From Streptomyces sp. KMM 9044 (lineage in GTDB: Bacteria; Actinomycetota; Actinomycetes; Streptomycetales; Streptomycetaceae), in assembly GCF_024701375.2 (NCBI RefSeq), contig NZ_CP113910.1:62001-126000 (forward strand): 64,000 nucleotides of DNA, read 5' to 3'. Under the pieces are notes generated by a model. It was not told where the DNA came from and ran no database searches. It saw only the letters and a program-made list of their open reading frames with translations. Position numbers and translations under genes: made by a program. Each line of letters starts with the position of its first letter. Position 1 is the stretch's first letter. Below are positions 7,178 to 48,380 of this stretch, piece after piece.

Positions 7178-7178
7178 G

Positions 7179-8123: not shown

Positions 8124-8148
8124 GACAGCTGCTCCTTGTCCGGGGCGG

Positions 8149-8934: not shown

Positions 8935-8947
8935 GTCGGGTGTCCTC

Positions 8948-9217: not shown

Positions 9218-9288
9218 GTCGGTCTGTTTCCTTCGTCTCGGGCTCGGTCGGCTGAGCAGTGCTCTCCCGCCGGTGCGCCGCGGGCAGC

Positions 9289-12252: not shown

Positions 12253-12948
12253 TTACTCGCCGGCCCCGCGGGTGTGGATCACCCGGTAGGAGTTCCAGTC
12301 GCTCTCGGTCTTCAGGGCGTTGACGCGCGCCTCGGACTTCTGACGGACCTCGGACTTCTCCGTCTCCGCCTGGTCACGGTGGGCGTCGTACAGCTCCTTG
12401 CTCGCCCACTGCGAGTAGACGACGGCGAAGGGGCCGTCCAGGAAGCGCGCGCGCAGCCCCTTGAAGACGCTGTGCGACCGGTAGCCGGGCGCGTCGACGA
12501 GCCAGGACTGGCCCTCGCCCAGTTCCGCGATCAGCTCGTCCTGGTTGCCTTCGGAGACCTTGAAGATCTCGATGACGGTGTAGTCGTCGCGGTCGGGCGA
12601 GATCTCGGTCACGTCGCCCTCGGACGGGTGCCGCTGGGTGTGGACAATCTCGCTCTGCAACAGCCGGATCGAGGTCGTGATGTCCTGGAAGACCGGCAGC
12701 GTGCGGTGCCTGAACTCCTCGCCGGAGTAACGCTTCTCCAGGTCCTCGCCGCTGCGCCACTGGATGAGGTTGGCGGTTCCCGGGCTGTCCTGGCCGGCGT
12801 GCACGGTGGAGGAGATCCACCCCTCGTAGGTTGCGGCGTCGACGATCTTCCGCATCTCCTGGATCAGCTTGTCCTGCTTCTCCGGCTGGTCGGTGGTGAA
12901 CAGGTTGAGGACGGTCAGGTGCTTGTCCTGGGGGGAGAGGTAGGGCAT
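12253..12948 (-). CDS. two-domain antibiotic biosynthesis monooxygenase (ABM)
   Basis: A 231-residue protein built of two dimeric alpha/beta-barrel ABM domains (PF03992). The first is around residues 10-100 (with [10 protein letters not shown] and [15 protein letters not shown]) and the second around 125-215 (with [16 protein letters not shown] and [17 protein letters not shown]). Cofactor-free ABM oxygenases oxidise anthrone-type or naphthacenone rings to quinones. A GTG 12 bases further upstream is an alternative start. It lies between the monooxygenase gene at 12998 and the cyclase gene in the core operon. Quinone formation is the likely role, inferred from family. Confidence 0.8.
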
Positions 12949-16420: not shown

Positions 16421-17539
16421 TCACACCGCTTCCTGCCGGCTCCTCAGCCGCTCGGCGAACAGGCTCCATTCCTTGCTGACGCTCTCCGCGATGGGAGCGA
16501 TGACACTGAGCCAGTGCGTCGGAATGGCGTTCACGAGTTCCTGCCACCCGCCCGGATCGGTCGCGTGCAGCGCCATCCACTGGAGAAACTCCTTGCCGCC
16601 CTCGGTGTACCGGATGCACGGGTCGTTGGCCACTTTGGCCGCGACCACCTCCCAGGCAGAGGGCACGCCGGTGGGGTTTCCGCACCGCAAGGGCGTCCCG
16701 TCGGTGTCCGGAGCGTCGACACGGCCCGCCACCGGAGCGGCGTCCGCGACCCGGTCGGCCGGGTGCACAGCCAGCCGTGCACCCGGCCCCCGGAGCCCGT
16801 TCCGCTCCGGGCTGATACCACGGCGCAGCCGGGCGCTCACGTCATGGACCGTGCCGAGGGACACGCCGGTCTCCCTGGCAACTTCCCGGAGCGTGGCGTT
16901 CGGATGGGCGTTGATGTATTCGGCAGCGCGGCGCCGGCCCTCGCCGGCGGTCACCGAGCGCAGCTTCCCGTCGCGGCCGAGGCGTTTCCCGCCGGACGGT
17001 GTGCCGCCCGCGGAACGGTCGCGCAGTGACGCGATCGTCTTCGCGCTCAGTCCCGTGACGCTCGCAAGGGCACGGTCGGACCATTCGGGATGCGCCGACA
17101 GAACGCGTTCGGCTCCGGAAACGCGATCGGTCTTCGACAACGGCAGTCCGTGCGAGCTGTTGGCCTTCATGGCGAGGACGAGCGCTTCGGCGTCCGTGCA
17201 GTCGACGAAACGTGCTTTTATGCTGTGGTCGCCGCGGAGCTTCGCGGCCTCCAGCCTGTGCAGCCCGTCGATGACACGCCAGCCGTCTTTCCGAACGAGA
17301 ATGGGCGGCAATTCCGAATGACCCGATGCGTCGATGAGCATTTGGACGTGAACGGCGTTGATCCCGCCCTGACGCAGATGCAGTCCGGGCGACAACGCAT
17401 GTACCGGGAGTTCCTGTGCCGGCGTCTTCTCGATGTTCTTGGAATTGAGTCCGTCACCGGCCGCCGATTCTCCGTACCTCAACCTGGCGGAACTGAAGCC
17501 GTCTGCGATCACCATAGCCCGCCCATCTTTGAAAGCCAT
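16421..17539 (-). CDS. StrR-type pathway-specific activator (ParB-like N-terminus, HTH)
   Basis: A 372-residue relative of StrR/NovG. A ParB/Spo0J-like domain covers about residues 45-130 (LPPILVRKDGWRVIDGLHRL, then KANSSHGLPLS). Two helix-turn-helix stretches follow: WSDRALASVTGLSAKTIASL near 153-172 and ATLREVARETGVSLGTVHDV near 215-234. StrR-family proteins activate antibiotic genes by binding GTTCRACTG(N11)CRGTYGAAC sites. Two such sites are present here at 26,749 and 30,037. The C-terminal third is variable and Pro/Gly-rich in its first part. It reads away from the sulfur block, with 144 bp between the two. Confidence 0.87.
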   Translation of the reverse strand: MAFKDGRAMVIADGFSSARLRYGESAAGDGLNSKNIEKTPAQELPVHALSPGLHLRQGGINAVHVQMLIDASGHSELPPILVRKDGWRVIDGLHRLEAAKLRGDHSIKARFVDCTDAEALVLAMKANSSHGLPLSKTDRVSGAERVLSAHPEWSDRALASVTGLSAKTIASLRDRSAGGTPSGGKRLGRDGKLRSVTAGEGRRRAAEYINAHPNATLREVARETGVSLGTVHDVSARLRRGISPERNGLRGPGARLAVHPADRVADAAPVAGRVDAPDTDGTPLRCGNPTGVPSAWEVVAAKVANDPCIRYTEGGKEFLQWMALHATDPGGWQELVNAIPTHWLSVIAPIAESVSKEWSLFAERLRSRQEAV

Positions 17540-17683: not shown

Positions 17684-18577
17684 TCAGCTCTTCACCAGCA
17701 GGCCGCGGCTGCGCAGGACCCATCGTTCCAGGGGGCTGAAAATGAGCAGGTCGATGGCGACGCCGACGATGAGGATGAGCAGGATGGCTTCGAAGACCAT
17801 GGCCATGTCACTGGCGTTGCGGCCGTTCTCGAGCAACTGGCCGAGGCCGACGCCGAGGTCGGGGAAGGAAGCAATGATCTCGGCGGCCATGAGCGAGCGC
17901 CAGGAGAACGCCCAGCCCTGCTTGAGACCGGCGACGTAGCCGGGCAGGGCGGCGGGGAGCACGATGTACCAGGTGCCTTTCAGACCGGTGGCGCCCATGG
18001 TGCGCCCGGCCCGCAGGAACAGCGGCGGCACCTGGTCGACGCCGGAGACGAGGCCGTTGGCGATGGAGGGGACCGCGCCGAGCAGGATCACGGCATACAT
18101 CATCGAGTTGTTCAGGCCCAGCCAGATCACCGCGGGCGGCACCCAGGCGACGGAAGGCAGGGATTGCAGGCCGGACAGGATCGGGCCGATCGCCGCGCGG
18201 ATGAACTTCACCCGGGCGACGAGCAGGCCCAGGGGGGTGCCGATGATCAGGGCGAGGCAGAAGCCGAGCAGGCCGCGCGAGACGCTGGTCCAGATGTAGC
18301 CGAGGAGTTCGCCTTCCAGCCACGCCTGCTGCACCACGTCCCACACCGCACCCGGGGAGGGCAGCTTGCTGGGGTCGTCGACGACCTTGAAGGAGACCAG
18401 CGCCTGCCACACCACCAGCACGAGCGCGACGGCGGTGATGGGGGGCAGGATCTTTTCCCGCAGGGTCTGCGCGAGAGGCTTGCGGGTCTGCTGCTGCGTC
18501 TCGAGGGCGTCGAGTCCTGCTTCGAGGCCGGCGAGGTCGTTGCCGTCCTCGGCCGCCGTCGTGTCAGTGCTGGCCAT
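17684..18577 (-). CDS. ssuC: ABC transporter permease, sulfonate/taurine type (SsuC-like)
   Basis: A 297-residue permease of the BPD_transp_1 (SsuC/TauC) family. About 40 cytoplasmic residues precede six membrane segments. The ATPase-docking EAA-like loop is seen around GTWYIVLPAALPGYVAGLKQG. It forms the membrane channel of an organosulfur or sulfate-ester importer together with the ATPase and binding protein encoded upstream. It overlaps the ATPase gene by 14 bp. The same gene order occurs in the primary sulfate-assimilation cluster of Streptomyces. Here it is the last gene of the sulfur block. Confidence 0.85.
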   Translation of the reverse strand: MASTDTTAAEDGNDLAGLEAGLDALETQQQTRKPLAQTLREKILPPITAVALVLVVWQALVSFKVVDDPSKLPSPGAVWDVVQQAWLEGELLGYIWTSVSRGLLGFCLALIIGTPLGLLVARVKFIRAAIGPILSGLQSLPSVAWVPPAVIWLGLNNSMMYAVILLGAVPSIANGLVSGVDQVPPLFLRAGRTMGATGLKGTWYIVLPAALPGYVAGLKQGWAFSWRSLMAAEIIASFPDLGVGLGQLLENGRNASDMAMVFEAILLILIVGVAIDLLIFSPLERWVLRSRGLLVKS

Positions 18578-19352
18578 GTCGGCGGATCTCCCCCCGCAGT
18601 TGTTCGGTGATCTCGACGGACAGCTCCGCGACGGCGGTGTCCTCGATGCGGCGTGGCTGCGGTATGTCCACGGTCCACTCGCGGGCGATGCGCCCGGGGC
18701 GGGAGGACAGCAGGATCACGCGCTGGGCGAGGCGCACGGCCTCGCGCACGTTGTGGGTGACGAACAGCACCGACACCTGCGTCTCACGCCAGATCCGGGT
18801 CAGCTCGTCGTGCAGCACATCCCGCGTGATGGCGTCGAGGGCGGCGAAGGGTTCGTCCATCAGCAGCAGGTTGCTCTCCTGCGCCAGTGCACGCGCCAGC
18901 GCAACCCGCTGGCGCATGCCACCGGACAACTCGTGTACCCGCTTGCCATAGGCACCCTTCAAGCGGACGAGCTCCAGGAGCTCTTCGGCGCGTTCGCGTC
19001 GCTCCTGTTTGGCGACGCCGCGGAGTTTGAGGGCGAGTTCGATGTTCTTGCCGGCGGTCAGCCAGGGAAACAGGGCGTGTTCCTGGAACATCAGCGCGGG
19101 TCGGCCGTCGGTGGTGATGTCTCCGGCGGTGGGCCGGTCGAGGCCTGCGACGAGGTTGAGCAGGGTGGATTTACCGCAGCCCGAGGCTCCCAGGAGGGTG
19201 ACGAACTCGCCGGGTGCGGCATCGAGGCTGATGTCGTCCAGCACGAGCTGCTGCCCGGCGGAGCCCGGGAACGACTTCGAGACGTGCTCGATGCGGGCGG
19301 CGTGGAGGGCCGTCGCGGTGCCGTCACCGGCCTTGGCGAGGGTCGTGGCCAT
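18564..19352 (-). CDS. ssuB: ABC transporter ATPase, sulfonate/taurine type (SsuB-like)
   Basis: A 262-residue ABC ATPase with Walker A GASGCGKST, Q-loop MFQEHALFPW, signature LSGGMRQRVALARAL, Walker B LLLMDEPFAALD and the switch His in VLFVTHNVREAV. It powers the permease encoded next. The ATG at 19352 is preferred over one 24 bases upstream because AGGAGG lies 8 bases before it. It lies 33 bp after the binding-protein gene. Substrate class (sulfonate, taurine or nitrate-type) is inferred from neighbours. Confidence 0.87.
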   Translation of the reverse strand: MATTLAKAGDGTATALHAARIEHVSKSFPGSAGQQLVLDDISLDAAPGEFVTLLGASGCGKSTLLNLVAGLDRPTAGDITTDGRPALMFQEHALFPWLTAGKNIELALKLRGVAKQERRERAEELLELVRLKGAYGKRVHELSGGMRQRVALARALAQESNLLLMDEPFAALDAITRDVLHDELTRIWRETQVSVLFVTHNVREAVRLAQRVILLSSRPGRIAREWTVDIPQPRRIEDTAVAELSVEITEQLRGEIRRHGQH

Positions 19353-19385
19353 GGTCGTCGCCTCCTGGAAACTCATCGGGACGGG

Positions 19386-20495
19386 TTACTTGACGCCGAG
19401 ACCGGCGTCGTCGACCGCGCTCCCACCGGCGGTCTTGAGGACCTTGTTGAGCAGCGTGAGGTCGTAGATGCCGGTCAGGTCGGGCTTGTCGAGCAGGCCG
19501 GCCTTGACGGCGTGAGCCGCTTGGGTGTCGAGGGTGGCGGCCAGCGGGTCGTTGATGAAGTCGATCGACTCCCACGCCGGGTCCAGCACCTCCACGGGCA
19601 AGGGCTTGCCGGAGTCGGCTTCCAACTGCTTGTTGGCGGAGGCCTTGGCTTCGGCGGGGTTGGCGTCGATCCACTTGTTGGTCTCCACCGACGCCTTCAG
19701 TACCGCCTCGACGACCTTGGGGTGCTCGGTGAGGAACTTCTGCGACACTATGGTGTTCGTGATGACGAACTTGCCGTCGGGCCACAGCGTCCTCTCGTCC
19801 AGCAGGACCTTTCCGCCCTCGGCGGCCAGCTTCGACGCGATTGGCTCCGGCACCCACGCACCGTCGACGGAACCGGCCTTGTAGGCGTCCGGAGTGACCT
19901 TGTTGTCACTGCGCACCACGGTCACGTCGCCCTTGCCGCTTTGCGGGTCGACCTTCCAGCCCTGCTCCGCCGCCCAGTTGAGGAAAGCCACGTCCTGGGT
20001 GTTGCCGAGCTGCGGGGTGGCGATCTTCTTTCCCTTGACGTCCATCAGGGACTTGATCTTCCCGGGGTTGACGACCAGCTTCACACCGCCGGAAGCCGAA
20101 CCACCGATGACCCGCAGGTTCTTGCCCCCCGACTTGGTGAACCCGTTGATCGCCGGAGACGGACCGATCCAGCCGATGTCGATCGAACCGGAGTTCAGTG
20201 CCTCGATCTCGGACGGACCGGCGTTGAACGTCGCGTACTCCGCCTTCGTGGCGCCCAGCGCCTTCTGGAAGAACCCCTTCTGGTTCCCCACCAACGCGGT
20301 CGCGTGAGTAAGGTTGCCCAAGTAGCCGATCTTGACGGAGTCGAGACCGTCGATCTTCTCCGCGCCGGCAGCGACCTTCGCGGTGTCGTCGGCCTCGGCC
20401 TCGGAGCCGTAGCCGCAGGCGGCGAGGGCGAACAGGGGAAGGGCGGCGAGGGCCGCGGCGCCGCGGCGGCGCAAGGTGAAGCGGTTGGCAGGCAC
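19386..20495 (-). CDS. ssuA: ABC transporter substrate-binding lipoprotein, sulfonate type (SsuA-like)
   Basis: A 369-residue periplasmic-binding-type protein anchored as a lipoprotein. The N-terminus has Arg-rich residues, a hydrophobic stretch and the lipobox LAAC, followed by a Gly/Ser/Glu linker. The mature domain (SVKIGYLGNLTHATALVGNQ, then GPSEIEALNSGSIDIGWIGP) is of the SsuA/TauA aliphatic sulfonate family. The GTG at 20495 is chosen because it places the signal peptide at the start and GAGAGGAAG lies upstream. It delivers an organosulfur compound or sulfate to the permease. It follows cysN by 107 bp in the same direction. Confidence 0.87.
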   Translation of the reverse strand: MPANRFTLRRRGAAALAALPLFALAACGYGSEAEADDTAKVAAGAEKIDGLDSVKIGYLGNLTHATALVGNQKGFFQKALGATKAEYATFNAGPSEIEALNSGSIDIGWIGPSPAINGFTKSGGKNLRVIGGSASGGVKLVVNPGKIKSLMDVKGKKIATPQLGNTQDVAFLNWAAEQGWKVDPQSGKGDVTVVRSDNKVTPDAYKAGSVDGAWVPEPIASKLAAEGGKVLLDERTLWPDGKFVITNTIVSQKFLTEHPKVVEAVLKASVETNKWIDANPAEAKASANKQLEADSGKPLPVEVLDPAWESIDFINDPLAATLDTQAAHAVKAGLLDKPDLTGIYDLTLLNKVLKTAGGSAVDDAGLGVK

Positions 20496-20602
20496 GGGGG
20501 ATCTTCCTCTCGTCGGCCCGGGTCCCTGACGGCCGGGGGCACCACTGCCGACACGATCGCCCTCCTTCGCGGACCTTGCGTGGTGGTCGGCGGGACGCAT
20601 GC

Positions 20603-21937
20603 TCAGAAGCCCCACCCGTCGTCCTCCGCCCTGTCCCTGGCCGGATGCGGGGCGGCGAAGGACGCGCCGACCATGCCCGCGGTGAGCGTGGTGCCGTCGC
20701 TCGGGTCGATCAGGATGAACGAGCCGGTGCGCCGTGAGTCGGCGTAGGAGTCGACCGGCAGCGGCTCGGCGGTGCGGATCTTCACCCGGCCGATGTCGTT
20801 GGCGGCGAGCGTGCCGGGGTGCGGATGCAGCGACAGGTCGTCCAGCGTCAGCCGGGCCGGGATGTCCTTCACGATCGCCTTGACCGTGCGGGTGCCGTGT
20901 TTGAGCAGCACCCGGTGGCCGACCGTCAGGGGCTGGTCGGCGACGTGGCAGACGGTGGCCTCGACGTCCTGCGTGGTGGCCGGCGCGTCCTTGCTCGGCA
21001 CGAGCAGGTCGCCGCGGGAGATGTCGATGTCGTCGGCCAGCAGCAGCGTCACCGACTGCGGCGTCCAGGCCGTCTCCACGGGCGTGCCCAGCAGGTCGAT
21101 CCCGGTGACCGTCGTGGTCCGGCCGGACGGCAGCACGGTCACCTCGTCGCCGACGCGGAACGTGCCCGCGGCGATCTGGCCGGCGTATCCCCGGTAGTCG
21201 GGGTGCTCGGCGCTCTGCGGCCGGATCACGTACTGCACGGGCAGCCGGGCGTGGCAGTGCGTCAGGTGGTGGCTGACCGGCACTGTCTCCAGGTGCTCCA
21301 GGACGGTCGGGCCGCCGTACCAGTCCATGTGTGCGGACGGCTCCACCACGTTGTCGCCGGCGAGTGCCGAGATCGGGATCGCGGTGACCTCCGGAACGCC
21401 CAGCTCGGTGGCGTACGCCGTGAATTCCTCGGCGATCCGTGCGAACACGGCCTCCTCGTAGTCCACCAGGTCCATCTTGTTGACGGCGAGGACGACATGG
21501 GGCACGCGCAGCAGGGCGGCGATGGCCGCGTGACGGCGGGTCTGCTCGACGACGCCGTTGCGGGCGTCGACCAGGATCACCGTCAGCTCGGCGGTGGAGG
21601 CACCGGTGACCATGTTGCGGGTGTACTGCACGTGCCCCGGGGTGTCGGCGAGGATGAACCGGCGCCGAGGGGTGGCGAAGTAGCGGTAGGCCACGTCGAT
21701 GGTGATGCCCTGCTCCCGCTCGGCCCGCAGCCCGTCGGTGAGCAGGGCCAGGTCGGGAGCCTCCTGGCCGCGGCTCGCCGACGCCCGCTCCACGGCCTCC
21801 AGCTGGTCGGTGAGGACCGACTTGGAGTCGTGCAGCAGCCGGCCCACCAGGGTGGACTTGCCGTCGTCGACGGAACCGGCGGTGGCGAACCGCAGCAGGG
21901 TGGTCTCTGCGAGCGCCTCGCTCGTGATCGTGCTCAT
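20603..21937 (-). CDS. cysN: sulfate adenylyltransferase, GTPase subunit
   Basis: A 444-residue EF-Tu-like GTPase. It has the P-loop GSVDDGKST near residue 21, the switch region REQGITIDVAYRYF, DTPGH and NKMD. Beta-barrel domains follow and end near residue 430. With CysD it makes adenosine-5'-phosphosulfate from sulfate and ATP. It is a stand-alone CysN with no fused APS kinase, fitting the separate cysC here. The ATG at 21937 lies 2 bases after the cysD stop. It belongs to a sulfate-activation set lacking reductive genes. Confidence 0.95.
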   Translation of the reverse strand: MSTITSEALAETTLLRFATAGSVDDGKSTLVGRLLHDSKSVLTDQLEAVERASASRGQEAPDLALLTDGLRAEREQGITIDVAYRYFATPRRRFILADTPGHVQYTRNMVTGASTAELTVILVDARNGVVEQTRRHAAIAALLRVPHVVLAVNKMDLVDYEEAVFARIAEEFTAYATELGVPEVTAIPISALAGDNVVEPSAHMDWYGGPTVLEHLETVPVSHHLTHCHARLPVQYVIRPQSAEHPDYRGYAGQIAAGTFRVGDEVTVLPSGRTTTVTGIDLLGTPVETAWTPQSVTLLLADDIDISRGDLLVPSKDAPATTQDVEATVCHVADQPLTVGHRVLLKHGTRTVKAIVKDIPARLTLDDLSLHPHPGTLAANDIGRVKIRTAEPLPVDSYADSRRTGSFILIDPSDGTTLTAGMVGASFAAPHPARDRAEDDGWGF

Positions 21938-21939
21938 GT

Positions 21940-22887
21940 CTAGAAGTACCCCTCGCGCTTGCGGTCTTCCATCGCGGCCTCGGAGAGCTTGTCGTCGGCG
22001 CGGGTCGCGCCGCGCTCGGTCAGCCGGGAGGCGGCGATCTCGGTGATCACCTTCTCGATGGTGTCGGCGTCGGAGTCGACCGCGCCGGTGCAGGACATGT
22101 CGCCCACCGTCCGGTAGCGCACCTGCCGCTTCTCGACACTCTCGCCGTCCTTCGGGCCGCCCCACCCTCCGGCGGTCAGCCACATGCCGCCCCGCTGGAA
22201 CACCTCGCGTTCGTGGGCGAAGTAGATCTCCGGCAGTTCGATGCCCTCGCGGGCTATGTACTGCCACACGTCCAGCTCGGTCCAGTTGGACAGCGGGAAG
22301 ACCCGGACGTGCTCACCGGGCGCGTGCCGGCCGTTGTAGAGGTTCCACAGCTCGGGCCGCTGACGGCGCGGGTCCCACTGGGAGAACTCGTCGCGCAGGG
22401 AGAACACCCGCTCCTTCGCGCGGGCCTTCTCCTCGTCCCGCCGGCCGCCACCGAACACGGCGTCGAACCGCTCCTGCTGGATCCTCTCCGTCAGCGGGAC
22501 CGTCTGCAGCGGGTTGCGGGTGCCGTCGGGGCGCTCGCGCAGCACACCGCGGTCGATGTAGTCCTGCACCGAGGCGACGTGCAGCCGCAGCCCGTGCCGG
22601 CCCACCGCGCGGTCCCGGTAGTCCAGGACCTCGGGGAAGTTGTGCCCGGTGTCCACATGCAGCAGCGAGAAGGGCACCGGCGCCGGCGTGAACGCCTTCA
22701 GCGCCAGGTGCAGCATGACGATCGAATCCTTGCCACCCGAGAACAGCACCACCGGGTTCTCGAACTCGCCCGCGACCTCACGGAAGATGTGCACCGCCTC
22801 CGACTCCAGCGCGTCCGGGTGCGAGAGGGCGTGCGGGGTGTCCGTGCCCCCGTCGTCCCCCGTCTCCGGGTCGACGGTCGGCGTCAT
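21940..22887 (-). CDS. cysD: sulfate adenylyltransferase, catalytic subunit
   Basis: A 315-residue PAPS-reductase-like nucleotide hydrolase. The PP-motif SGGKDS is near residue 50, and other typical segments are HVDTGHNFPEVLDYRD, FGGGRRDEEKARAKER and the C-terminal KREGYF. It adenylates sulfate to APS with the CysN GTPase. AAAGGGGAC precedes the ATG at 22887, and the start overlaps the cysC stop by 4 bp. Length and motifs match functional enzymes; nothing looks decayed. Confidence 0.95.
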   Translation of the reverse strand: MTPTVDPETGDDGGTDTPHALSHPDALESEAVHIFREVAGEFENPVVLFSGGKDSIVMLHLALKAFTPAPVPFSLLHVDTGHNFPEVLDYRDRAVGRHGLRLHVASVQDYIDRGVLRERPDGTRNPLQTVPLTERIQQERFDAVFGGGRRDEEKARAKERVFSLRDEFSQWDPRRQRPELWNLYNGRHAPGEHVRVFPLSNWTELDVWQYIAREGIELPEIYFAHEREVFQRGGMWLTAGGWGGPKDGESVEKRQVRYRTVGDMSCTGAVDSDADTIEKVITEIAASRLTERGATRADDKLSEAAMEDRKREGYF

Positions 22888-23420
22888 AACAGTCCCCTTT
22901 CGGTGAGCACGGCGTACACCGCGGCGGCGGACTCCTGGACGGTCTGGTGCTGCGACTCGATGCGCAGGTCCGGCGACGCGGGCTCCTCGTACGGGTCGTC
23001 CACCCCGGTGAGGCCCTTCAGCTCCCCGGCGGCCTGCTTGGCGTAGAGGCCCTTCACATCCCGCTCGCTGCACACCTCGACGGGGGTGGCGACATGCACC
23101 TCGGCATACGGTGTGCCGTTGCTGTCGTGGTGCTTGCGTACCGCCTCCCGGCTGTCGGCGTAGGGCGCGATCACCGGGACCAGCGCCAGCACGCCGTTGC
23201 GGGCGAGCAGTTCGGCGACGAATCCGATGCGCTGCACGTTGGTGTCCCGGTCCTCACGGGAGAAGCCGAGGCCCGCGGAGAGGAACTCGCGGACCTCGTC
23301 GCCGTCCAGGACCTCCACGCGGTGGCCCCCCGCACGGAGCCGGCCGGCCAGCTCGTAGGCAATGGTGGTCTTGCCGGCGCTCGGCAGACCGGTGAGCCAG
23401 ACGGTGACTCCGGTCGTCAC
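22884..23420 (-). CDS. cysC: APS kinase
   Basis: A 178-residue adenylylsulfate kinase. It has P-loop GLPSAGKTT near residue 10, the DGDEVREFLSAGLGFSREDR segment that binds APS, and KGLYAKQAAGELKGLTGVDDPYE. It phosphorylates APS to PAPS, the universal sulfate donor. The GTG at 23420 is preferred over an ATG at 23450 because AGGAG lies 6 bases upstream of it and the length matches the family. It begins the cysC-cysD-cysN-transporter unit. A 225-bp gap separates it from the monooxygenase gene at 23646. Confidence 0.94.
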   Translation of the reverse strand: MTTGVTVWLTGLPSAGKTTIAYELAGRLRAGGHRVEVLDGDEVREFLSAGLGFSREDRDTNVQRIGFVAELLARNGVLALVPVIAPYADSREAVRKHHDSNGTPYAEVHVATPVEVCSERDVKGLYAKQAAGELKGLTGVDDPYEEPASPDLRIESQHQTVQESAAAVYAVLTERGLL

Positions 23421-23645
23421 GTGTGTCTCCTGGGGGTTGGTGGTCGTCATCCGTGCAGCTCGTACTCGTCTCGCCGCGGGCCCGGCCGTGCGCGGGTCGC
23501 GGCACAGACCGGGGATCGCGGTCGAGCGGTTCCGGTCCGTACACGGCGTCCCGCTCGGCGACCGTCCGCGGCCCGGGCATGAGGGATCGAGGTGTCTCAC
23601 GGCCTCGGTCGCGTCGCGGAGGCCGGTGGTCTCATGGTGCGAGGG

Positions 23646-25124
23646 CTAGGCAGGCTGTGCGGTGGCGCGGGTGGTGCCGAACCAGTGGGCGAGTACGTCG
23701 GTCAGGTCGCCGTCGCTGCCGGGGGACGTCCAGGCGACGTAGCCGTCGGGCCTGACGAGCACCGCCTCCGGCGCGGCCTTTGGGCCGTCCGCCCAGGCGC
23801 CGGTGACGATGTCGATCCGGTCCGCCCAGTCCTCGGCCGACTGCGCGGCCGCGCCCGCGCCGTCTGTGGCGACGAGCACGCCACGCGCGGAGTGCAGCAG
23901 ACCGGCGATCCGGGTCCGGCTGCCGTCGGACAGGACCAGTTCGCGGTCGGGCGGCATGCGCCTGCCCAGCAGCGGGTGATCCCCCGGCCCCATGCCGTAG
24001 CGGATGCCCAGCCCGCTGAGGATACCGGCCAGGTGCGCCGCCGCGTCCTTGTGCGCCACCAACTCGCTCAGCACACCGCGCAGCGGAGCCGTCTCCTCGC
24101 CGGTGAGCCGTAGTTCGATCGCGGCGCGGGCGTTGCGCGCCAGTTGCTGCCCGATCGGGTGGCGTTCGGCGTGGTAGGTGTCGAGCAGCCCTTCGGGCGC
24201 CCAGCCGTTGACCGCCGCCGCCAGCTTCCAGCCGAGGTTCACCGCATCCTGCACGCCCACGCTCAGCCCCTGCGCCATCGCCGGCGGCTGTACGTGCGTG
24301 GCGTCACCCGCGAGGAACACCCGGCCGCGCCGGTACTCGGCGGCCACCCGGGAGGCGTCGGTGAAACAGCTGATCCAGCGGCACTGCCCGTGGTGGATGG
24401 ACTCGCCGGTGAGCCGCTGCCACGCGTCGGCGAGTTCGGTGTACGACAGCGAGTCCCGGTCCTTCGGCCGCATGCCCCTCTCGTACGCGACGACCCGGGT
24501 GACGCCGTTCTCCAGGTCCATCGCCATGATCATGCTGCCGTCCGGCAGGTTCTCGCCGATGCGCCGACGACGGGTCTCGATGCCGGTCACGTCGGCCGTG
24601 TAGAAGCCGCGCGTGGGCTCCGGGCCGGGGAAGTCGATGCCGACCAGCTTGCGAATGGTGCTCCGTCCGCCGTCGCAGCCGACCACGTACCGGGCGGTGT
24701 CCTCGCCGCGGCCCTCCGGCCCCTCGAAGCTCACGACGACGCCCTCCGGCGTCTCGCGCACACCGGTCACCTCGTACCCGCGGCGCACCGGCACCCCGAG
24801 CTCGGCCGCCCAGTCCTCCAGCATCCGCTCGGTGCGGAACTGGGAGACTCCCCTGGCGCCGCGGTGGTTCTCGTCCAGCATGCCGAGGTCGATCGGCACC
24901 CCGCCGAAGTGGCTGTCGGCGGGCTCCGTCTCGCCGAGCCTGCCGAGCAGCCCTCGCTGGTCGAAGCTCTCGGCTGTGCGCCGGGTGAAGCTGGCGCCGC
25001 GGGACTCCCGCGGCGGGGCGGGCAGCTTCTCGTAGACGACGACGTCGACGCCGCCGAGGCGCAGTTCGCCGGCCATCATCAGCCCGACAGGACCCGCGCC
25101 GACGACTATCACGTCCCTGGTCAT
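23646..25124 (-). CDS. FAD-dependent monooxygenase, second of a tandem pair
   Basis: A 492-residue polyketide flavin hydroxylase with VGAGPVG near residue 9, the DG motif (GCDGGRSTIRK), the GD motif (LAGDATHVQPPAMAQG) and the thioredoxin-like tail ending WFGTTRATAQPA. AGGAGCGTGAGC precedes the ATG at 25124, 2 bases after the stop of its paralogue. Long stretches, including about 368 bp coding for the C-terminal domain, are identical to the upstream copy. The FAD and substrate regions between them differ, so the two enzymes probably act on different positions or steps. Confidence 0.88.
   Translation of the reverse strand: MTRDVIVVGAGPVGLMMAGELRLGGVDVVVYEKLPAPPRESRGASFTRRTAESFDQRGLLGRLGETEPADSHFGGVPIDLGMLDENHRGARGVSQFRTERMLEDWAAELGVPVRRGYEVTGVRETPEGVVVSFEGPEGRGEDTARYVVGCDGGRSTIRKLVGIDFPGPEPTRGFYTADVTGIETRRRRIGENLPDGSMIMAMDLENGVTRVVAYERGMRPKDRDSLSYTELADAWQRLTGESIHHGQCRWISCFTDASRVAAEYRRGRVFLAGDATHVQPPAMAQGLSVGVQDAVNLGWKLAAAVNGWAPEGLLDTYHAERHPIGQQLARNARAAIELRLTGEETAPLRGVLSELVAHKDAAAHLAGILSGLGIRYGMGPGDHPLLGRRMPPDRELVLSDGSRTRIAGLLHSARGVLVATDGAGAAAQSAEDWADRIDIVTGAWADGPKAAPEAVLVRPDGYVAWTSPGSDGDLTDVLAHWFGTTRATAQPA
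23650..24017. repeat. 368-bp segment identical to 25158-25525 (gene-conversion tract)
   Basis: The 3' part of the second monooxygenase gene matches the 3' part of the first base for base over 368 bp. After three mismatches the match continues for about 50 bp. Further identical tracts lie at about 24160-24266 (copy near 25668) and 24670-24811 (copy near 26181), separated by clearly diverged stretches. This mosaic pattern indicates recent gene conversion after an older duplication. Confidence 0.85.
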
Positions 25125-25126
25125 GC

Positions 25127-26638
25127 TCACGCTCCTGTCCGGTGGGTGCCGCTGGTTGCAGGCTGTGCGGTGGCGCGGGTGGTGCCGAACCAGTGGGCGA
25201 GTACGTCGGTCAGGTCGCCGTCGCTGCCGGGGGACGTCCAGGCGACGTAGCCGTCGGGCCTGACGAGCACCGCCTCCGGCGCGGCCTTTGGGCCGTCCGC
25301 CCAGGCGCCGGTGACGATGTCGATCCGGTCCGCCCAGTCCTCGGCCGACTGCGCGGCCGCGCCCGCGCCGTCTGTGGCGACGAGCACGCCACGCGCGGAG
25401 TGCAGCAGACCGGCGATCCGGGTCCGGCTGCCGTCGGACAGGACCAGTTCGCGGTCGGGCGGCATGCGCCTGCCCAGCAGCGGGTGATCCCCCGGCCCCA
25501 TGCCGTAGCGGATGCCCAGCCCGCTCACGATACCGGCCAGGTGCGCCGCCGCGTCCTTGTGCGCCACCAACTCGCCCAGCACACCGCGCAGCGGGTCCAT
25601 GTCGGCGTCGCCGAGGTACAGCATCGACGCCGCCTGGGCGTTGCGAATCAGTTGCTGCCCGATCGGGTGGCGTTCGGCGTGGTAGGTGTCGAGCAGCCCT
25701 TCGGGCGCCCAGCCGTTGACCGCCGCCGCCAGCTTCCAGCCGAGGTTCACCGCATCCTGCACGCCGGCGCTGAGCCCCCAAGCGGCCAGCGGCGGCATCT
25801 CGTGCGCGGCGTCGCCTGCCAGGAGCACCCGGCCGCGCCGGTACTCGTCGGCCAGGCCGGCCGCGTTGCCGCAGGCCCACATCCACTGTGCCTCGGCATG
25901 GTGGACGGACTCGCCGGTGAGCCGCTGCCACGCGTCGGCGACCTGCGCGAACGTCAGCGAGTCGGGGTTCTGGTGAGGGGGCAGGCCCTTGTCGTGGATG
26001 ACGATGCGGTAGCGGCCGTCGCCCAGGGGCGTGCACACCACCATGTGGCCGCCGGGCAGGCGTTCACCGATGGGCCGCGGGCGCAGCGTCACACCGGTGA
26101 TCTCCGCGGTGTACATGCCCCGGGTGGCCTCCCAACCCTGAGCAGGGATGCCCGCCGCCGCGCGGACGGTGCTCCGGGGGCCGTCGCAGCCGACCACGTA
26201 CCGGGCGGTGTCCTCGCCGCGGCCCTCCGGCCCCTCGAAGCTCACGACGACGCCCTCCGGCGTCTCGCGCACACCGGTCACCTCGTACCCGCGGCGCACC
26301 GGCACCCCGAGCTCGGCCAGCCGACCGCCCAGCATGCCTTCGGTCCGGGCCTGGGACAGACCCAGCACGCCGCTGTGGTTCTCGTCCAGCATGCCAAGGT
26401 CGAAACGGACACCGCCGAAGTGTCCCATCGGGCCCCACCGGAATTCACCGAGCTGGGGAAGCAGTCCGCGCTGGTCCAGCGATTCGGCTGCCCGTCGGTT
26501 GAAGCCGAGCGCGCGGGATTCCCCGGACGGGGCGGCGAGCTTGTCGTAGACGGTGACATTCACACCGCCCAAGTGGAGTTCGCAGGCCAGCATCAATCCG
26601 ACCGGCCCGGCACCGACAATTATTACGCCAGTTTCCAT
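25127..26638 (-). CDS. FAD-dependent monooxygenase, first of a tandem pair
   Basis: A 503-residue polyketide flavin hydroxylase: VGAGPVG near residue 8, the DG motif (GCDGPRSTVRA), the GD motif (LAGDAAHEMPPLAAWG) and a thioredoxin-like tail. It is the leader of the monooxygenase pair. A StrR-type palindrome lies 111-139 bp upstream of its ATG, so it is a likely direct target of the StrR-type regulator. Codon use and flanks resemble the neighbours, so it belongs to the cluster. Confidence 0.88.
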   Translation of the reverse strand: METGVIIVGAGPVGLMLACELHLGGVNVTVYDKLAAPSGESRALGFNRRAAESLDQRGLLPQLGEFRWGPMGHFGGVRFDLGMLDENHSGVLGLSQARTEGMLGGRLAELGVPVRRGYEVTGVRETPEGVVVSFEGPEGRGEDTARYVVGCDGPRSTVRAAAGIPAQGWEATRGMYTAEITGVTLRPRPIGERLPGGHMVVCTPLGDGRYRIVIHDKGLPPHQNPDSLTFAQVADAWQRLTGESVHHAEAQWMWACGNAAGLADEYRRGRVLLAGDAAHEMPPLAAWGLSAGVQDAVNLGWKLAAAVNGWAPEGLLDTYHAERHPIGQQLIRNAQAASMLYLGDADMDPLRGVLGELVAHKDAAAHLAGIVSGLGIRYGMGPGDHPLLGRRMPPDRELVLSDGSRTRIAGLLHSARGVLVATDGAGAAAQSAEDWADRIDIVTGAWADGPKAAPEAVLVRPDGYVAWTSPGSDGDLTDVLAHWFGTTRATAQPATSGTHRTGA

Positions 26639-26748
26639 TTTCGACCTTCCACGCGGGGCGGCTGAGGAATCGTCGGTGTCAAACTACACATCACCATGTT
26701 CCGCTGCAATGACGTGATGAATTCATAAGTCGGGCCGGTCACTTGGGC

Positions 26749-26777
26749 GTTCAACCGCGGATTTCACGCGGTTGAAC
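26749..26777. promoter_or_regulatory. StrR-type operator 1
   Basis: A perfect palindrome, GTTCAACCG(N11)CGGTTGAAC, 29 bp long. Arm length, spacer and core match the published StrR/NovG consensus GTTCRACTG(N11)CRGTYGAAC apart from one symmetrical base per arm. It lies upstream of the tandem monooxygenase genes and just past the stop of the secreted hydrolase gene. The regulator encoded at 16421 is the natural candidate to bind it. Confidence 0.75.
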
Positions 26778-26791
26778 GTGGAGGACGGGTT

Positions 26792-28330
26792 CTACGGTGT
26801 CGGCACCGGCGCCGGGTTGGCCTCGCAGGTGGCGTCGGCGCCCTTGCCGGAAGCTGGGCGGCTGCCGTCCCTCAGGTAGGCGCTGACGTAGCCGTTGACG
26901 CACGTGTTGGCGTTGCGGGACAGGGACGTTTCGTGCTCGTAGCCGTTGCGCTCCAGCACCAGCCGGGAGTTGGGAAACCGCTTGTGCACGTCGTGGGCGC
27001 CCGCCAGCGGGGACCCGGCTACGTGCTGACCTTGCACCACCAGGACGTCCACCCCCTTGGCGCCGACCTTCTGCGGCTTGCCCGCGGGCACCGGCCAGAA
27101 GGCGCACGGCGCATTGTACCAGACATTGTACCAGGTCAGGAAGGTGTTGCCGGCCCGGTACTGGCGTGAGTAGTCGTTGTGCCAGCGCTTCCAGTTGCGC
27201 GGCCAGGGCGAGTCGCTGCACTGGACCGCGTTGTACATGGCCTGCTTGTTCTGCGTCGGGTAGCCCGGGTCGTTGAAGTTGGCCTTCAGCCCCGCCGGGT
27301 CCTTGCGCAGCACCCAGTCGGCCAGCGCCTTGGTGTGGCCGACCCAGGAGGAGCGGCGGTACAGGTTGACCAGAAACACCTCGGTGTACTCGGCCGGGCC
27401 GATCCTGCCGTCGACCGGCGCCTCGCGCACCATTGCCATGCCTTCGTAGTACTTCGCCTCGACCTCGGCCCGGGTCGCGCCCAGGTGGTAGGTCGCGTCG
27501 TGCCCGGCGATCCAGGAGAAGTAGTTCTCGGCGCTCTTCTCGAAGGTCACGTTCTGCTCGAGGACGCCCTTGTACCAGCCGTTGCTGGGCTGCACCACGG
27601 TGTCCAGCACCATCCGGCGCACCCGGCCCGGGAAAATCGAGGCGTAGACCGAGCCTAGGTACGTGCCGTAGTCCCAGCCGAAGTAGGTGAGTTGCTCCTG
27701 ACCGAGTGCCTGACGGATCAGGTCCATGTCGCGGGCGGCGTCCTTGGTGCTGAGGAAGTTGAGCGCGTCACCGTAGGCGCGGCCACAGCTTTCGGCGAAG
27801 TCACGGGCCTTGTTCAGCCACGTCCGCTCCTCGGCGGCCGTGCTCGGCACCAGGTCGGGACGGGCCGCGCCCGGCCAGACGTAGGTCGGTTCGCAGGTGA
27901 CCATCGGCTCACTGGCCCCGGTACCGCGCGGGTCGAAGCCGATCCAGTCGTAGGTGGCGCCGACGGCCGGGGACAGCCCGGACGTGCCCTTGGCGAACCG
28001 GGTGGGCAGGTCACGCCCGAACTGGCCGGGCCACTGACCCCGGTTCAGCAGCACGATGCCCTGGTACTGATCGTCCGGCACGGTGTGCTTGGCGCGGGTC
28101 AGCGCCAGCTTTATCTTCCGGCCGCCCGGTCGGCCGTGGTCGAGCGGGACCTCGAGCGAGCCGCATTCCAGCCCTTTCAGGTAACCCCCGATGACCGGGT
28201 CGTCGTCCGGGCAGGGCGACCAGGAGACGCCGGTCACCGGCAGGTCGGCCGACGCCTTCGCCGGTGCCGCGACAGCCGCGCCTGCCAAACCGGTGGCAGC
28301 CGCCATCGTAATTGCTAGGAACTTCCTCAC
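26792..28330 (-). CDS. secreted TAP-like alpha/beta hydrolase with Asp at the nucleophile position
   Basis: A 512-residue secreted member of the tripeptidyl-aminopeptidase-like (S33, SlpD/E) family. It has a signal peptide (KFLAITMAAATGLAGAAVA, cleavage near residue 28), the strand GFDPRGTGAS near 131-140 and a TAP-type C-terminal domain. The usual nucleophile elbow GxSYGT reads GWDYGT, with Asp220 instead of Ser. The usual DPATP acid motif reads VAGSP, and the GGPGGSG oxyanion loop is replaced. A His (GYEHET) remains. The enzyme is thus not a normal peptidase; an Asp nucleophile recalls epoxide hydrolases and dehalogenases. GTG at 28330 has AAGGGG upstream. Extracellular detoxification of an epoxide product is a hypothesis. 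Confidence 0.8.
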   Translation of the reverse strand: MRKFLAITMAAATGLAGAAVAAPAKASADLPVTGVSWSPCPDDDPVIGGYLKGLECGSLEVPLDHGRPGGRKIKLALTRAKHTVPDDQYQGIVLLNRGQWPGQFGRDLPTRFAKGTSGLSPAVGATYDWIGFDPRGTGASEPMVTCEPTYVWPGAARPDLVPSTAAEERTWLNKARDFAESCGRAYGDALNFLSTKDAARDMDLIRQALGQEQLTYFGWDYGTYLGSVYASIFPGRVRRMVLDTVVQPSNGWYKGVLEQNVTFEKSAENYFSWIAGHDATYHLGATRAEVEAKYYEGMAMVREAPVDGRIGPAEYTEVFLVNLYRRSSWVGHTKALADWVLRKDPAGLKANFNDPGYPTQNKQAMYNAVQCSDSPWPRNWKRWHNDYSRQYRAGNTFLTWYNVWYNAPCAFWPVPAGKPQKVGAKGVDVLVVQGQHVAGSPLAGAHDVHKRFPNSRLVLERNGYEHETSLSRNANTCVNGYVSAYLRDGSRPASGKGADATCEANPAPVPTP

Positions 28331-28553
28331 GTGATCCCCTTCTTGAGCGCAGGCCCGCCGCCGGACCCGAATCACGGGCAGGTCGACGAACCCGATTTTT
28401 ACGGGCATTTACAGGGGGGCGGCGAGAGACTATCGGAGTGAGAAGTGGCGTGAAAACAACTACGGTTGAACACCGACTGCGGTCAAGCGAGGCTGGAATG
28501 GCACCCCGGGCCGACCACGGAAAATAACCGTCATCGGGCGGACCGTAAACGCG

Positions 28554-28596
28554 AAAAACCCCGCGGAGCAGCCGTCGGCTCGGCTTCTCCGCAGGG
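28554..28596 (-). terminator. Rho-independent terminator after the sulfotransferase gene
   Basis: Read on the minus strand, an imperfect hairpin (CCCTGCGGAGAAGCC paired with GGCTGCTCCGCGGGG) is followed directly by TTTTT. It lies 24 bp past the sulfotransferase stop, so it should end that transcript and insulate the hydrolase gene beyond. Confidence 0.7.
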
Positions 28597-28619
28597 ACAA
28601 AGAAAAAAGAGGGCGGCGT

Positions 28620-29336
28620 CTAGCGCACTCCACCGGGTGCGAGCGGGCCGCCACCGGCGGCCATCTGCTGCATCCTTTCGCGCATGTTCGCGGTGGTGTT
28701 GACGTGCGGGAATTCCGCTGCCGGCGCGCCGGTCCCAAGGAACGCGCACAGCGGTTCCCAGCCCTGCTTCACGTCGTAGACGAGGAGGTTGTCCGCGGGG
28801 ACCGCGTCCATGATCTCCTGGTTGCGCCGATGGTAGACCTTGATGGCGTGGTCCTTGTCGGAGAACCGTCCGTCGAACAGGCCGTCCCAGGTCATGACAC
28901 TGGTCATGCGGTAGACCCGGGCCTGCCTGGATCCCTCCTCCGAAGGGTTCTCCTTGTTCTTCAGGACGAACTGGTACAGCGTGTTGTACGTGCTCTCGTA
29001 CCAACCGTCGGCGTCACGCACCGTGAGGACAACCTTGGCGTCGGGGAACGCCTCCGTGATCTGGCGGTAGTAGAAGGAAGGAGGGCCGTCCACCGCGGAC
29101 GTGTACCCGTCGAACACCGCTTCCCAGTCGGGCTGGTGCTCATCGCAGATGATGCGTTCCCACTGCTCCAGACGCTTCTCGTGGCCGACGATGTCGAACA
29201 TGTGGTAGCAGGGTCCGTAACCGAGCTGTTCCAGCGCCACCTGCAGTGACGTCGTCCCGGTCCTGCCTAAACCGGCGTTGATGAGCTTCAACAAGGTGAG
29301 GTCCTTCCCTCCGGCTGGGTGGTCGGCTGGGAGCAT
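28620..29336 (-). CDS. PAPS-dependent sulfotransferase
   Basis: A 238-residue sulfotransferase. The 5'-phosphosulfate loop GLGRTGTTSLQ is near residues 22-32. The 3'-phosphate-binding strand VVLTVRDADGWYEST is near 102-116, with Arg107 and Ser115 in the expected spacing. A helical C-terminal part contains KVYHRRNQEIMDAVP. It transfers sulfate from PAPS to a hydroxyl of an acceptor, presumably a polyketide phenol. A TTG at 29294, after GGAGGGAAGG, is an alternative start. The cysC-cysD-cysN genes five kilobases away would supply its donor. Confidence 0.85.
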   Translation of the reverse strand: MLPADHPAGGKDLTLLKLINAGLGRTGTTSLQVALEQLGYGPCYHMFDIVGHEKRLEQWERIICDEHQPDWEAVFDGYTSAVDGPPSFYYRQITEAFPDAKVVLTVRDADGWYESTYNTLYQFVLKNKENPSEEGSRQARVYRMTSVMTWDGLFDGRFSDKDHAIKVYHRRNQEIMDAVPADNLLVYDVKQGWEPLCAFLGTGAPAAEFPHVNTTANMRERMQQMAAGGGPLAPGGVR

Positions 29337-29416: not shown

Positions 29417-29863
29417 TCAGCGCCAGGCTGCCGGCACCTGCCTGGTGGAGACGTTGATGCGGTTCCAAAGGTTGACCAGGCCGATGTGTATGACCAGCGA
29501 GGCGAGTTCCTCCTCGGTGTAGTGCCGGGTCGCCTCCTCCCAGACCTCGTCGGACACCGGGTCCTCCTGGCCGCTGAGGTCGGTGGCGCCCTCGGCCAGC
29601 GCCAGCGCGGCGCGCTCGGCGGGGCCGAAGCAGGCCGCCTCCCGCCAGCCGGCCACCAGGGGCAGGCGCTCGTCCGCCTCGGCCGCCTTCCCGAGATCGG
29701 CGGGGATCGTGTAGACGCGGCCGTTGATCTGGCTCACCCGCAGCCGGACGAGGTCGAGCGTCTGCTGCGGGACACCGGCCTTGCCGATCACCCTGGTCAG
29801 CTCGAGCAGGGGCTGCAAGGCGTCGGGGACGACCAGCGAAGGGTTGTTCATCCGGGGTGGCAT
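29417..29863 (-). CDS. carboxymuconolactone decarboxylase/AhpD-like protein lacking CxxC
   Basis: A 148-residue all-helical AhpD/CMD-fold protein. Typical segments are LDLVRLRVSQINGRVYT, WREAACFGPAERAALALAE and LASLVIHIGLVNLWNRINV. The family's redox CxxC after NG is replaced by RVYT (Arg49, Thr52), and the following His-containing stretch is also changed. Thiol peroxidase chemistry is therefore unlikely; binding, decarboxylation or cyclisation are possible. AGGAG precedes the ATG at 29863. It diverges from the SDR gene, with a StrR-type operator between them. Confidence 0.75.
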   Translation of the reverse strand: MPPRMNNPSLVVPDALQPLLELTRVIGKAGVPQQTLDLVRLRVSQINGRVYTIPADLGKAAEADERLPLVAGWREAACFGPAERAALALAEGATDLSGQEDPVSDEVWEEATRHYTEEELASLVIHIGLVNLWNRINVSTRQVPAAWR

Positions 29864-30036
29864 CGGGGCTTCTCCTGTGAGTCGGTCCTGCTCCGCCGCT
29901 GCTCTGGCGCCCCCCGGCTGGGAACGGAGGGGCGAAGAGGGGGCGGAGGCGTGCAGCGGCGAGTGCCGGTGCACCAGGCTGCCGCCGCTCTGTCCGTCCT
30001 GCAAGTGCCTGCCGGGCCGTGCGGCCCGCCACCTGT

Positions 30037-30065
30037 GTTCGACCGCGGAATTCCCGCGGTTGAAC
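30037..30065. promoter_or_regulatory. StrR-type operator 2
   Basis: GTTCGACCG(N11)CGGTTGAAC, 29 bp, a near-perfect palindrome with the same arms and spacer as the site at 26749. It lies between the divergent AhpD-like gene (start 29863) and the SDR gene (start 30168). A shared operator 3.3 kb from the first supports coordinated control by the StrR-type regulator. Confidence 0.75.
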
Positions 30066-30167
30066 ACCACGGGCGTTCACGACGGCATCGGGTGTGCCGC
30101 CGAAACTGTGTGACTCTTCGGTGAGTTCCGACGCACGTGCCCCCCTACGACGGAAGGGACTTCAGAC

Positions 30168-31378: not shown

Positions 31379-31390
31379 GGACAGGTGGTC

Positions 31391-32119
31391 ATGAAGTCAG
31401 CACCCGAGGGCTTTGACCGGCAGCCGGTGATCGGGATCACCGCACGGACGGTCCCGGTCACACTGCAGGGCACCGACATGGTGGTGAGCCTCGCGCTCCA
31501 GTCGCACGTGGACTTCCTCGCCGCCGCGGGCTGCCTCCCCGTGCTGCTCCCGCTGCGGCACGGGGTCGAGCGGATCGTCGGTGACCTCGACGGCCTGCTC
31601 GTCCCGGGCGGCCCGGACGTCGATCCGGCGCTGTACGGACAGAGCCGGCATCCGAGGACCCGCGGCGGCAGCCCGGAGATGGACCGCGCCGAACTCGCCC
31701 TGCTCGGTGCGGCACTCGAGGCCGGCCTGCCCCTCCTCGCCATCTGCCGCGGCATGCAACTGCTCAACGTGCAGTGCGGAGGCACCCTGCACCAGCATCT
31801 GCCGGAGATCACCGACAACGACACCCATCGCCCGCAGACCGCCGGGTTCGAGTTCGGCCGGCATGTCCTGGACCTCCGGGCCGACAGCCGCATCGCCGGG
31901 ATCTTCGGCGACGACACGCCCAAGACCGCCTGCCACCACCACCAGGCGGTCGACCAAATCGGCACCGGCCTCACCGCCACCGCCTGGGCGCCGGACGGCG
32001 TCGTCGAGGTGGTCGAGGCGGTCGGCCACCCCTTCGCGATCGGCGTGCAGTGGGAAGCCGGCCAGACCGAGGACGACCGGCTCCACCTGGCACTCGCGAA
32101 AGCGGCCGGGCGCAGCTGA
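31391..32119 (+). CDS. class I glutamine amidotransferase-like (PuuD family) with altered triad
   Basis: A 242-residue PuuD-type (peptidase C26) protein. It has the nucleophile Cys119 in AICRGMQLLN and the oxyanion loop LVPGGPDVDP. The usual C-terminal HPE that completes the triad (VQWHPE) reads VQWEAG (Glu222, Gly224), so the catalytic His and Glu appear lost. Normal members hydrolyse gamma-glutamyl amides. This one may be inactive for hydrolysis, or have a changed reaction. A GTG at 31385 is an alternative start. A perfect stem-loop follows its stop. Confidence 0.75.
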   Translation: MKSAPEGFDRQPVIGITARTVPVTLQGTDMVVSLALQSHVDFLAAAGCLPVLLPLRHGVERIVGDLDGLLVPGGPDVDPALYGQSRHPRTRGGSPEMDRAELALLGAALEAGLPLLAICRGMQLLNVQCGGTLHQHLPEITDNDTHRPQTAGFEFGRHVLDLRADSRIAGIFGDDTPKTACHHHQAVDQIGTGLTATAWAPDGVVEVVEAVGHPFAIGVQWEAGQTEDDRLHLALAKAAGRS

Positions 32120-48288: not shown

Positions 48289-48331
48289 GTAGTCGGGTCG
48301 CCCGGGGGAATCTCACCCCCGGGCTCCCACG

Positions 48332-48365: not shown

Positions 48366-48380
48366 TTGTCGTCCTGGTCC

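Follow-up and report, generated by a model that had tools for sequence, protein, structure and literature searches.

The window considered here is a stretch of 64,000 nucleotides from Streptomyces sp. KMM 9044 (C1:62001-126000 of a 7.43 Mb genome that is 99.94% complete; genome label G000). Within a type II polyketide cluster it carries a gene cassette, cysCDN-ssuABC, for making 3'-phosphoadenosine 5'-phosphosulfate (PAPS), together with the gene for a PAPS-type sulfotransferase (ST). Genes of the window were identified from gene calls and from Pfam and NCBIfam scans, with the curated family values as cut-offs.

The PAPS cassette, the sulfotransferase and their host cluster

The cassette lies entirely on the minus strand. 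The cysC gene (22884-23450; PF01583, 194 bits; TIGR00455, 199.2 against a cut-off of 138.7) encodes an adenylyl-sulfate kinase, which converts adenosine 5'-phosphosulfate (APS) to PAPS; cysD (21940-22887; PF01507; TIGR02039, 455 against 396.6) and cysN (20603-21937; PF00009; TIGR02034, 548.8 against 336.1) encode the small subunit and the large, GTPase subunit of ATP sulfurylase. These are followed by genes for an SsuA-type substrate-binding lipoprotein (19386-20495; PF13379; TIGR01728, the SsuA family, 196.6 bits against 163.5), an SsuB-type ABC ATPase (18564-19352; PF00005; no NCBIfam equivalog cut-off passed among the matches listed), and an SsuC-type ABC permease (17684-18577; PF00528). 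The genes are tightly packed, the widest gap (about 107 bases) lying between cysN and ssuA. An earlier interpretation of this DNA, here called the sequence-only reading, had named these genes in this order and direction, as the gene calls and domain scans confirm; it set their start correctly at 17684 but their end at 23420, whereas cysC runs to 23450 with the start chosen here and to 23600 in its longest frame.

By the domain scans, the genes for APS kinase and for the two subunits of ATP sulfurylase are contiguous inside the polyketide cluster. The flanking genes are also those anticipated: flavin adenine dinucleotide (FAD) monooxygenases (PF01494) on either side of the cassette and a regulator (16421-17539, minus strand) with weak matches to ParB-like and helix-turn-helix families, which we take to be StrR-like in view of its homologues in sister clusters. 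A tblastn search with the genome's own CysI and CysH found neither gene across the window and the adjoining 20 kb on its left (L008), the sole window match being a weak cross-match of CysD to the CysH query. The window set, already described in the sequence-only reading as free of reductive genes, is accordingly distinct from an assimilatory sulfate-reduction operon, in which cysH and cysI are present; judged from its gene content, it is able to make PAPS without reducing it.

A complete assimilatory operon is found elsewhere in the genome (C1:1306000-1322000, L007), in the order cysI (PF01077), cysH (PF01507), cysC, cysD, cysN, ssuA, ssuB, ssuC, and a CbiX-domain gene. A whole-genome check for such a second cysHI-cysCDN locus had been suggested, and the sulfation proposal would have failed had the window held the only cysCDN copy in the genome; since a separate and complete operon exists, that possibility is ruled out and the cassette in the window is an additional copy. 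The genome has two APS kinases, with the second cysC at C1:1311628, and four places that match PF01507 (window CysD; C1:1311017, 1312287, and 3345559), one of them weakly at 38 bits. The window copy shares the cysC-to-ssuC order of the Streptomyces assimilatory operon (cysI-H-C-D-N-ssuABC) but is without cysI, cysH, and the downstream CbiX-domain gene; identities between the two copies are 87% for CysC, 96% for CysD, 98.6% for CysN, 74% for SsuA, 87% for SsuB, and 86% for SsuC. The gene sets covered in sister clusters likewise gave no cysI or cysH by tblastn, CysD cross-matches aside.

The PAPS-type sulfotransferase expected at 28620 is encoded at 28620-29336 on the minus strand and belongs to Sulfotransfer_4 (PF17784, 209.1 bits against a cut-off of 22.8). 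Residues G24, R25, T26, G27, T28, S30, L31, R107, and S115 do not vary among the 14 rows of either alignment, one of which omits L044 for a stop in its translation; the loop at 24-31, R107, and S115 presumably constitute the PAPS-binding motifs. ST has a sulfotransferase fold, and the closest PDB structures are 9kf1/9kf2 (Cpz8), followed nearly as closely by 8y9p (SgdX2). Cpz8 (caprazamycin) and SgdX2 (sungeidine) share this fold at 38% identity over about 200 residues but serve pathways other than that of the window; the substrate of Cpz8 is a type III polyketide pyrone. Adjoining ST is the gene for a CMD/AhpD-like protein (29417-30070, minus strand; PF02627), whose homologue stands immediately beside ST in 13 of 17 loci (some genomes counted twice); these 17 (L012-L019, L032-L039, L045) were taken from 36 ST loci, the others having lower identity or belonging to the genome of the window itself. 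The CMD/AhpD-like protein may act together with ST.

The type II polyketide synthase (PKS) core, including an FAD oxygenase, spans 5633-12094 and has on the minus strand ketosynthase alpha (10497-11768) and chain length factor (9289-10500), both PF00109/PF02801, acyl carrier protein (8948-9217; PF00550), a ketoreductase of the short-chain dehydrogenase/reductase type (8149-8934; PF00106), aromatase/cyclase (7179-8123; PF10604 in two stretches), and a TcmI-type polyketide cyclase (11765-12094; PF04673). This order is presumably of the angucycline type. An ABM-domain oxygenase follows (12253-12948, minus strand; PF03992; PDB 5f9p, "anthrone oxidase-like protein", E 3.6e-90), which we take to be of the AlpJ/JadG type that cleaves the B ring. 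To the left of the window, L008 contains an AlpH homologue (L008:3983-4942; PDB 8h3t, E 5.9e-139), the predicted diazo-installing enzyme, and also encodes a lyase, a glutamine synthetase, an amidase, a GNAT protein, and a dicluster 4Fe-4S ferredoxin (L008:18066-18398). A 580-residue protein of L008, with no match in Pfam or the PDB, is putatively KinJ, an assignment made from its position, its ferredoxin neighbour, and its absence of domains rather than by comparison with KinJ. This gene set fits the hydrazine cassette KinI-N (PMC6133997, PMC12154649).

On the strength of the PKS core, the AlpJ- and AlpH-like enzymes, and the hydrazine cassette, the host is assigned by gene content to the kinamycin/lomaiviticin type (diazobenzofluorene), reaching left beyond the window; the type II polyketide cluster proposed earlier is borne out and narrowed in this way. 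Kinamycin, lomaiviticin, and fluostatin clusters have the PKS core, AlpJ-type oxygenase, AlpH-type enzyme, and KinI-N cassette in common with it.

Association of the cassette with the sulfotransferase

Relatives of ST at a minimum of 64% identity occur in 8 of 392 Streptomyces genomes, the window's included (21 of 392 at E 1e-20), and a scan of named genomes gave 14 ST loci, including, at 55-71%, three from Actinomadura and those of Actinoallomurus, Kineosporia, and S. wedmorensis. The cysCDN-ssuABC cassette lies no more than 21 kb from ST in five of the eight genomes (G000, G257, G095, G204, and G147). For G107 and G160 the contig with ST ends within ssuABC, a contig break splitting the operon, and the other contig ends in a cysC fragment (G107) or in cysC (G160), beside the same hydrolase gene in both; the contigs of the eighth genome, G081, are too short to judge linkage. 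S. wedmorensis has cysD-cysC beside the same hydrolase at a contig edge, unlinked to ST.

A KinJ-like protein of at least 56% identity is encoded in 15 of the 392 genomes, 7 of which also carry ST. The remaining eight have a ketosynthase alpha of 82-86% identity, on a separate contig from the KinJ-like gene in G289 and G168. In none of these eight kinamycin-type clusters does the same contig hold a cysC less than about 260 kb away, the distance covered being shorter in G275, G248, and G289, whose contigs are only 75-105 kb; the nearest cysC is about 263 kb away in G300 and about 278 kb away in G168. Fisher p values for linkage are 7.8e-4 (5/5 vs 0/8, omitting G081, G107, and G160) and 1.6e-4 (7/7 vs 0/8, omitting G081), both overstated because the genomes are related. 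Neither group includes G671 (kinamycin-type, with a contig that ends early) or G388, G170, and G196 (KinJ-like at 38-43%); G184, G047, and G275, counted as lacking ST, carry a 42-44% relative, either well away from the cluster or on a separate contig. The cassette goes with ST across several Streptomyces genomes, and, given this recurring pairing, sulfate probably has a role in the cluster's chemistry.

ST and the cassette also travel with a module of tailoring genes. In the window these encode a hydrolase resembling peptidase C26 and glutamine amidotransferases (31385-32119, plus strand), the FAD monooxygenase FMO6 (32381-34078, plus), an NmrA-like reductase (34289-35098, plus), an alpha/beta hydrolase (35189-35965, minus) whose sister-cluster homologue adjoins cysC, a flavin amine-oxidase-like protein (36222-37685, plus), and an Rv2466c-like mycothiol-dependent reductase (37735-38343, plus). 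FMO6, the amine-oxidase-like flavoprotein, a close NmrA homologue, the Rv2466c-like reductase, and both hydrolases are present in all six well-read clusters with ST; the FMO6 homologue is absent from all eight Streptomyces clusters without it. Homologues of the peptidase C26-like protein reach 65-69% identity in four other clusters with ST and 41-50% in seven of the eight without. The StrR-like gene is found in five of the six well-read Streptomyces clusters with ST, the window's counted, and in none of the eight without. As far as the stretches read extend, these eight kinamycin-type Streptomyces clusters contain no cysCDN-ssuABC, and neither module genes nor the StrR-like gene at comparable identity; absences in this comparison are absences from stretches that cover 60 kb for each of six clusters and, in two pieces each, 40 kb for G289 and 80 kb for G168. 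The presence matrix omits G081; contigs were incomplete for G147, S. wedmorensis, G418, and the five non-Streptomyces clusters in it.

Two other clusters with ST have features of their own. That of G257 has an extra block (L066:18471-19838 and L067:1244-8114) encoding an FGE-sulfatase domain, an asparagine synthase, an aldehyde dehydrogenase, a beta-eliminating lyase, and a PNPOx protein, beside ATP-grasp and PhyH genes; most were not seen among the scanned window genes, and other clusters have open reading frames (ORFs) of similar size. The block is possibly an added unit for an amino-acid-derived moiety or a C-S bond. G418 belongs to a different family within the class; here ST, CMD, PKS genes, genes of the AlpH-like and KinJ-like types, and much the greater part of the hydrazine cassette share one contig of 26 kb (L102-L103), possibly a compact cluster of the same kind.

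Conversion and replacement within the cassette

A tract of the window's cysDN (20648-22815, minus strand) is near-identical to the assimilatory cysDN, with two mismatches in 2168 bases and exact runs of 907, 903, and 356 bases, whereas the rest of the operon is about 71-91% alike and the genes that flank the tract have synonymous divergences (Ks) of 0.40-0.53. A near-identical tract between diverged flanks points firmly to recent gene conversion between the two cysDN copies; the two mismatches and the sharp edges make an assembly artefact less likely. The tract offers a clear example of how a copy devoted to biosynthesis is kept matched to the assimilatory copy from which it derives.

Independent recruitment, as read from CysN and CysD trees, is weakened by the conversion tract, which covers the window's cysDN. 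For this reason SsuABC, which lies outside the tract, was tested, although in-place replacement could have occurred there as well. The SsuABC of seven cluster copies are not one clade (p-AU 2.2e-8): those of G204, G257, G095, and G147 form a clade (100/100), and those of G000, G107, and G160 fall with assimilatory copies. This tree omits G107_2nd, a third set of PAPS genes, whose neighbours differ. A further PAPS set of G107 (G107:C1:5263000-5279000, L089) comprises cysCDN and a divergent ABC transporter in other surroundings.

In G160 a cluster-type CysC, grouping with other cluster copies (83/97, unstarred), is combined with an assimilatory-type ssuABC, which looks like overwriting in place. 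In the window a monooxygenase gene, not the hydrolase gene, adjoins cysC; the encoded CysC groups with that of G081 C133 (99/98). By these trees and junctions, the cassette was recruited or replaced at least twice, yet kept. A single recruitment followed by later in-place conversion from the assimilatory copy, for all cluster copies, has even odds and fits either fate of the sulfate: the 2.17 kb cysDN tract, nearly identical to the assimilatory copy between flanks of Ks about 0.4-0.5, is an example of such conversion, and G160 retains the hydrolase-cysC junction and a cluster-type CysC despite its assimilatory-type ssuABC, but the neighbour of the window's cysC and the grouping of its CysC with another lineage count against it. 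In G107, G160, and S. wedmorensis contigs break within these same genes or next to them, possibly a hint of conversion in those genomes as well.

Proposed use of PAPS and fate of the sulfate

The favoured reading, with a probability of about three in four, is that CysDN and CysC supply PAPS to ST within this pathway and that SsuABC serves as the sulfate importer. The ATP sulfurylase (CysDN) and APS kinase (CysC) would convert sulfate to PAPS. Sulfonates are broken down to sulfite, and sulfite is not a source of PAPS; importing sulfonates would thus be of no use here, and SsuABC, travelling with cysCDN, most likely imports sulfate. No canonical sulfate permease CysT (TIGR02139) exceeded the cut-off in the genome (best match 188.2 against 246.1 bits), a weak negative in that only 3 of 14 control genomes pass this cut-off and other transporter families were not searched. 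That an SsuABC travelling with PAPS-only genes should import sulfate makes its annotation testable. From the cassette's PAPS, ST would then transfer sulfate to a hydroxyl in a late intermediate, probably one that the co-travelling FMO6, NmrA-like reductase, and alpha/beta hydrolase produce, with the A ring as the likely site; thereafter the sulfate could remain as an ester or depart as a leaving group. The same logic, with sulfurylase and kinase retained and cysH omitted, underlies E. coli engineered to overproduce PAPS for sulfation (PMC10609280).

The claim of the sequence-only reading that the set feeds sulfation rather than cysteine synthesis is upheld as to the second copy, the endpoint at PAPS, and the linkage to ST, and dedicated use of the PAPS is what we infer from them. 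Several observations weigh against the supply of ST by a cassette of its own. All five non-Streptomyces carriers of ST (three Actinomadura, Actinoallomurus, and Kineosporia) have a single CysC, so ST needs no dedicated cassette. G147 has ST and the cassette but no KinJ-like gene, several of the genomes with ST are closely related, and the window's genome encodes at least one other sulfotransferase (PF13469, C1:2105641; PF00685 was not searched). Two or more strong CysC matches (above 150 bits) occur in 13 of 40 Streptomyces genomes without ST, so an extra copy alone means little, and a second CysC alone was discarded as evidence.

Whether the sulfate stays on the product is evenly balanced. 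Retained in the final compound as the stable ester of a phenol or alcohol group (+79.96 Da), it would alter solubility, export, or self-toxicity. This fate has precedents in which a dedicated PAPS cassette is coupled with a kept sulfate. The adipostatin adp cluster of Streptomyces davaonensis (AdpST and adpP1-3), whose cassette raised di-sulfation, resembles the window in its sulfotransferase, dedicated adenylylsulfate kinase, and two-subunit sulfurylase, with more PAPS sets elsewhere in the genome, but has a type III PKS and a five-gene operon without a transporter (PMC12135136); it is likened here by gene content, not by ST sequence. The notonesomycin nbc cluster (nbc9-11 and nbc48) likewise joins a cysCDN-like operon and a sulfotransferase within a polyketide cluster, but makes a 32-membered macrolactone and has a sulfotransferase placed with Stf3 (PMC7081687). 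Partial or complete PAPS cassettes are also reported for the ssl and ssc clusters (PMC12135136), and azinomycin has dedicated PAPS genes in its cluster, AziH1-3, as the window does, for an unrelated scaffold (PMC7081687). Cpz8, as the closest solved structure to ST, also favours retention; SgdX2, nearly as close, does not, being titled an "activating" sulfotransferase, and five published accounts of diazo- and benzofluorene pathways use the stem "sulf" 0, 1, 2, 0, and 0 times, never for a product.

A transient sulfate falls somewhat short of even odds. A hydroxyl, probably of the A ring, would be made a leaving group, its loss giving a dehydrated or quinone-methide intermediate, from which reduction, aromatisation, or coupling (dimerisation) would lead to a sulfur-free product. 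Sulfation makes a leaving group in azinomycin biosynthesis. The title of the SgdX2 structure (8y9p) agrees with an activating role, and the structure matches include a Schistosoma sulfotransferase solved with oxamniquine, a drug that this enzyme activates from its prodrug form. ST also travels with tailoring genes absent from clusters without it, and acyl fluostatins turn spontaneously into quinone methides that drive dimer formation (PMC13028485). More tentatively still, cryptic sulfation can be envisaged, in which the PAPS cassette and an activating ST make an A-ring sulfate leaving group that yields an enzyme-controlled quinone methide for deoxygenation or dimer coupling.

That a stray second assimilation operon landed in the cluster, serving primary metabolism or sulfonate use, is very improbable: the cassette and the assimilatory operon are paralogous, most closely in CysN and CysD, and second CysC copies are common, but cysH and cysI were not found in the window or L008, the linkage to ST is recurrent, the window having other neighbours and replacement having happened repeatedly, and the cassette is in none of the eight sister clusters without ST, as far as these were read.

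A donor-supply operon in such a cluster had been called unusual; the word needs qualifying, since PAPS cassettes are known from a macrolactone cluster and from a type III polyketide cluster, but none has been described for a diazobenzofluorene (kinamycin-type) or any type II PKS cluster in the literature searched, which mostly excluded subscription papers; the sections consulted of PMC10609280 and PMC11356490 concern no clusters of this kind. The genomes point to a subgroup of kinamycin-type clusters (8 of the 392 Streptomyces genomes sampled, and other actinomycete genera) with PAPS chemistry seemingly built in. A retained sulfate would make a sulfated diazobenzofluorene, a new product type; a transient one would provide an activation step for A-ring chemistry or dimerisation, of a kind still unassigned for lomaiviticin-like compounds.

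Mobile elements occur in and beside the window. To the right of the cluster, two Rfam matches mark a group II intron (48292-50144, minus strand), whose ORF (48381-49625) is for a reverse transcriptase of the maturase type, and a transposase pair (51141-52420; HTH_Tnp_1 and rve) is presumably IS3-like. DUF6444 and zf-IS66 matches lie at 44024-44959, and L008:6183-7499 encodes an IS110-type transposase.

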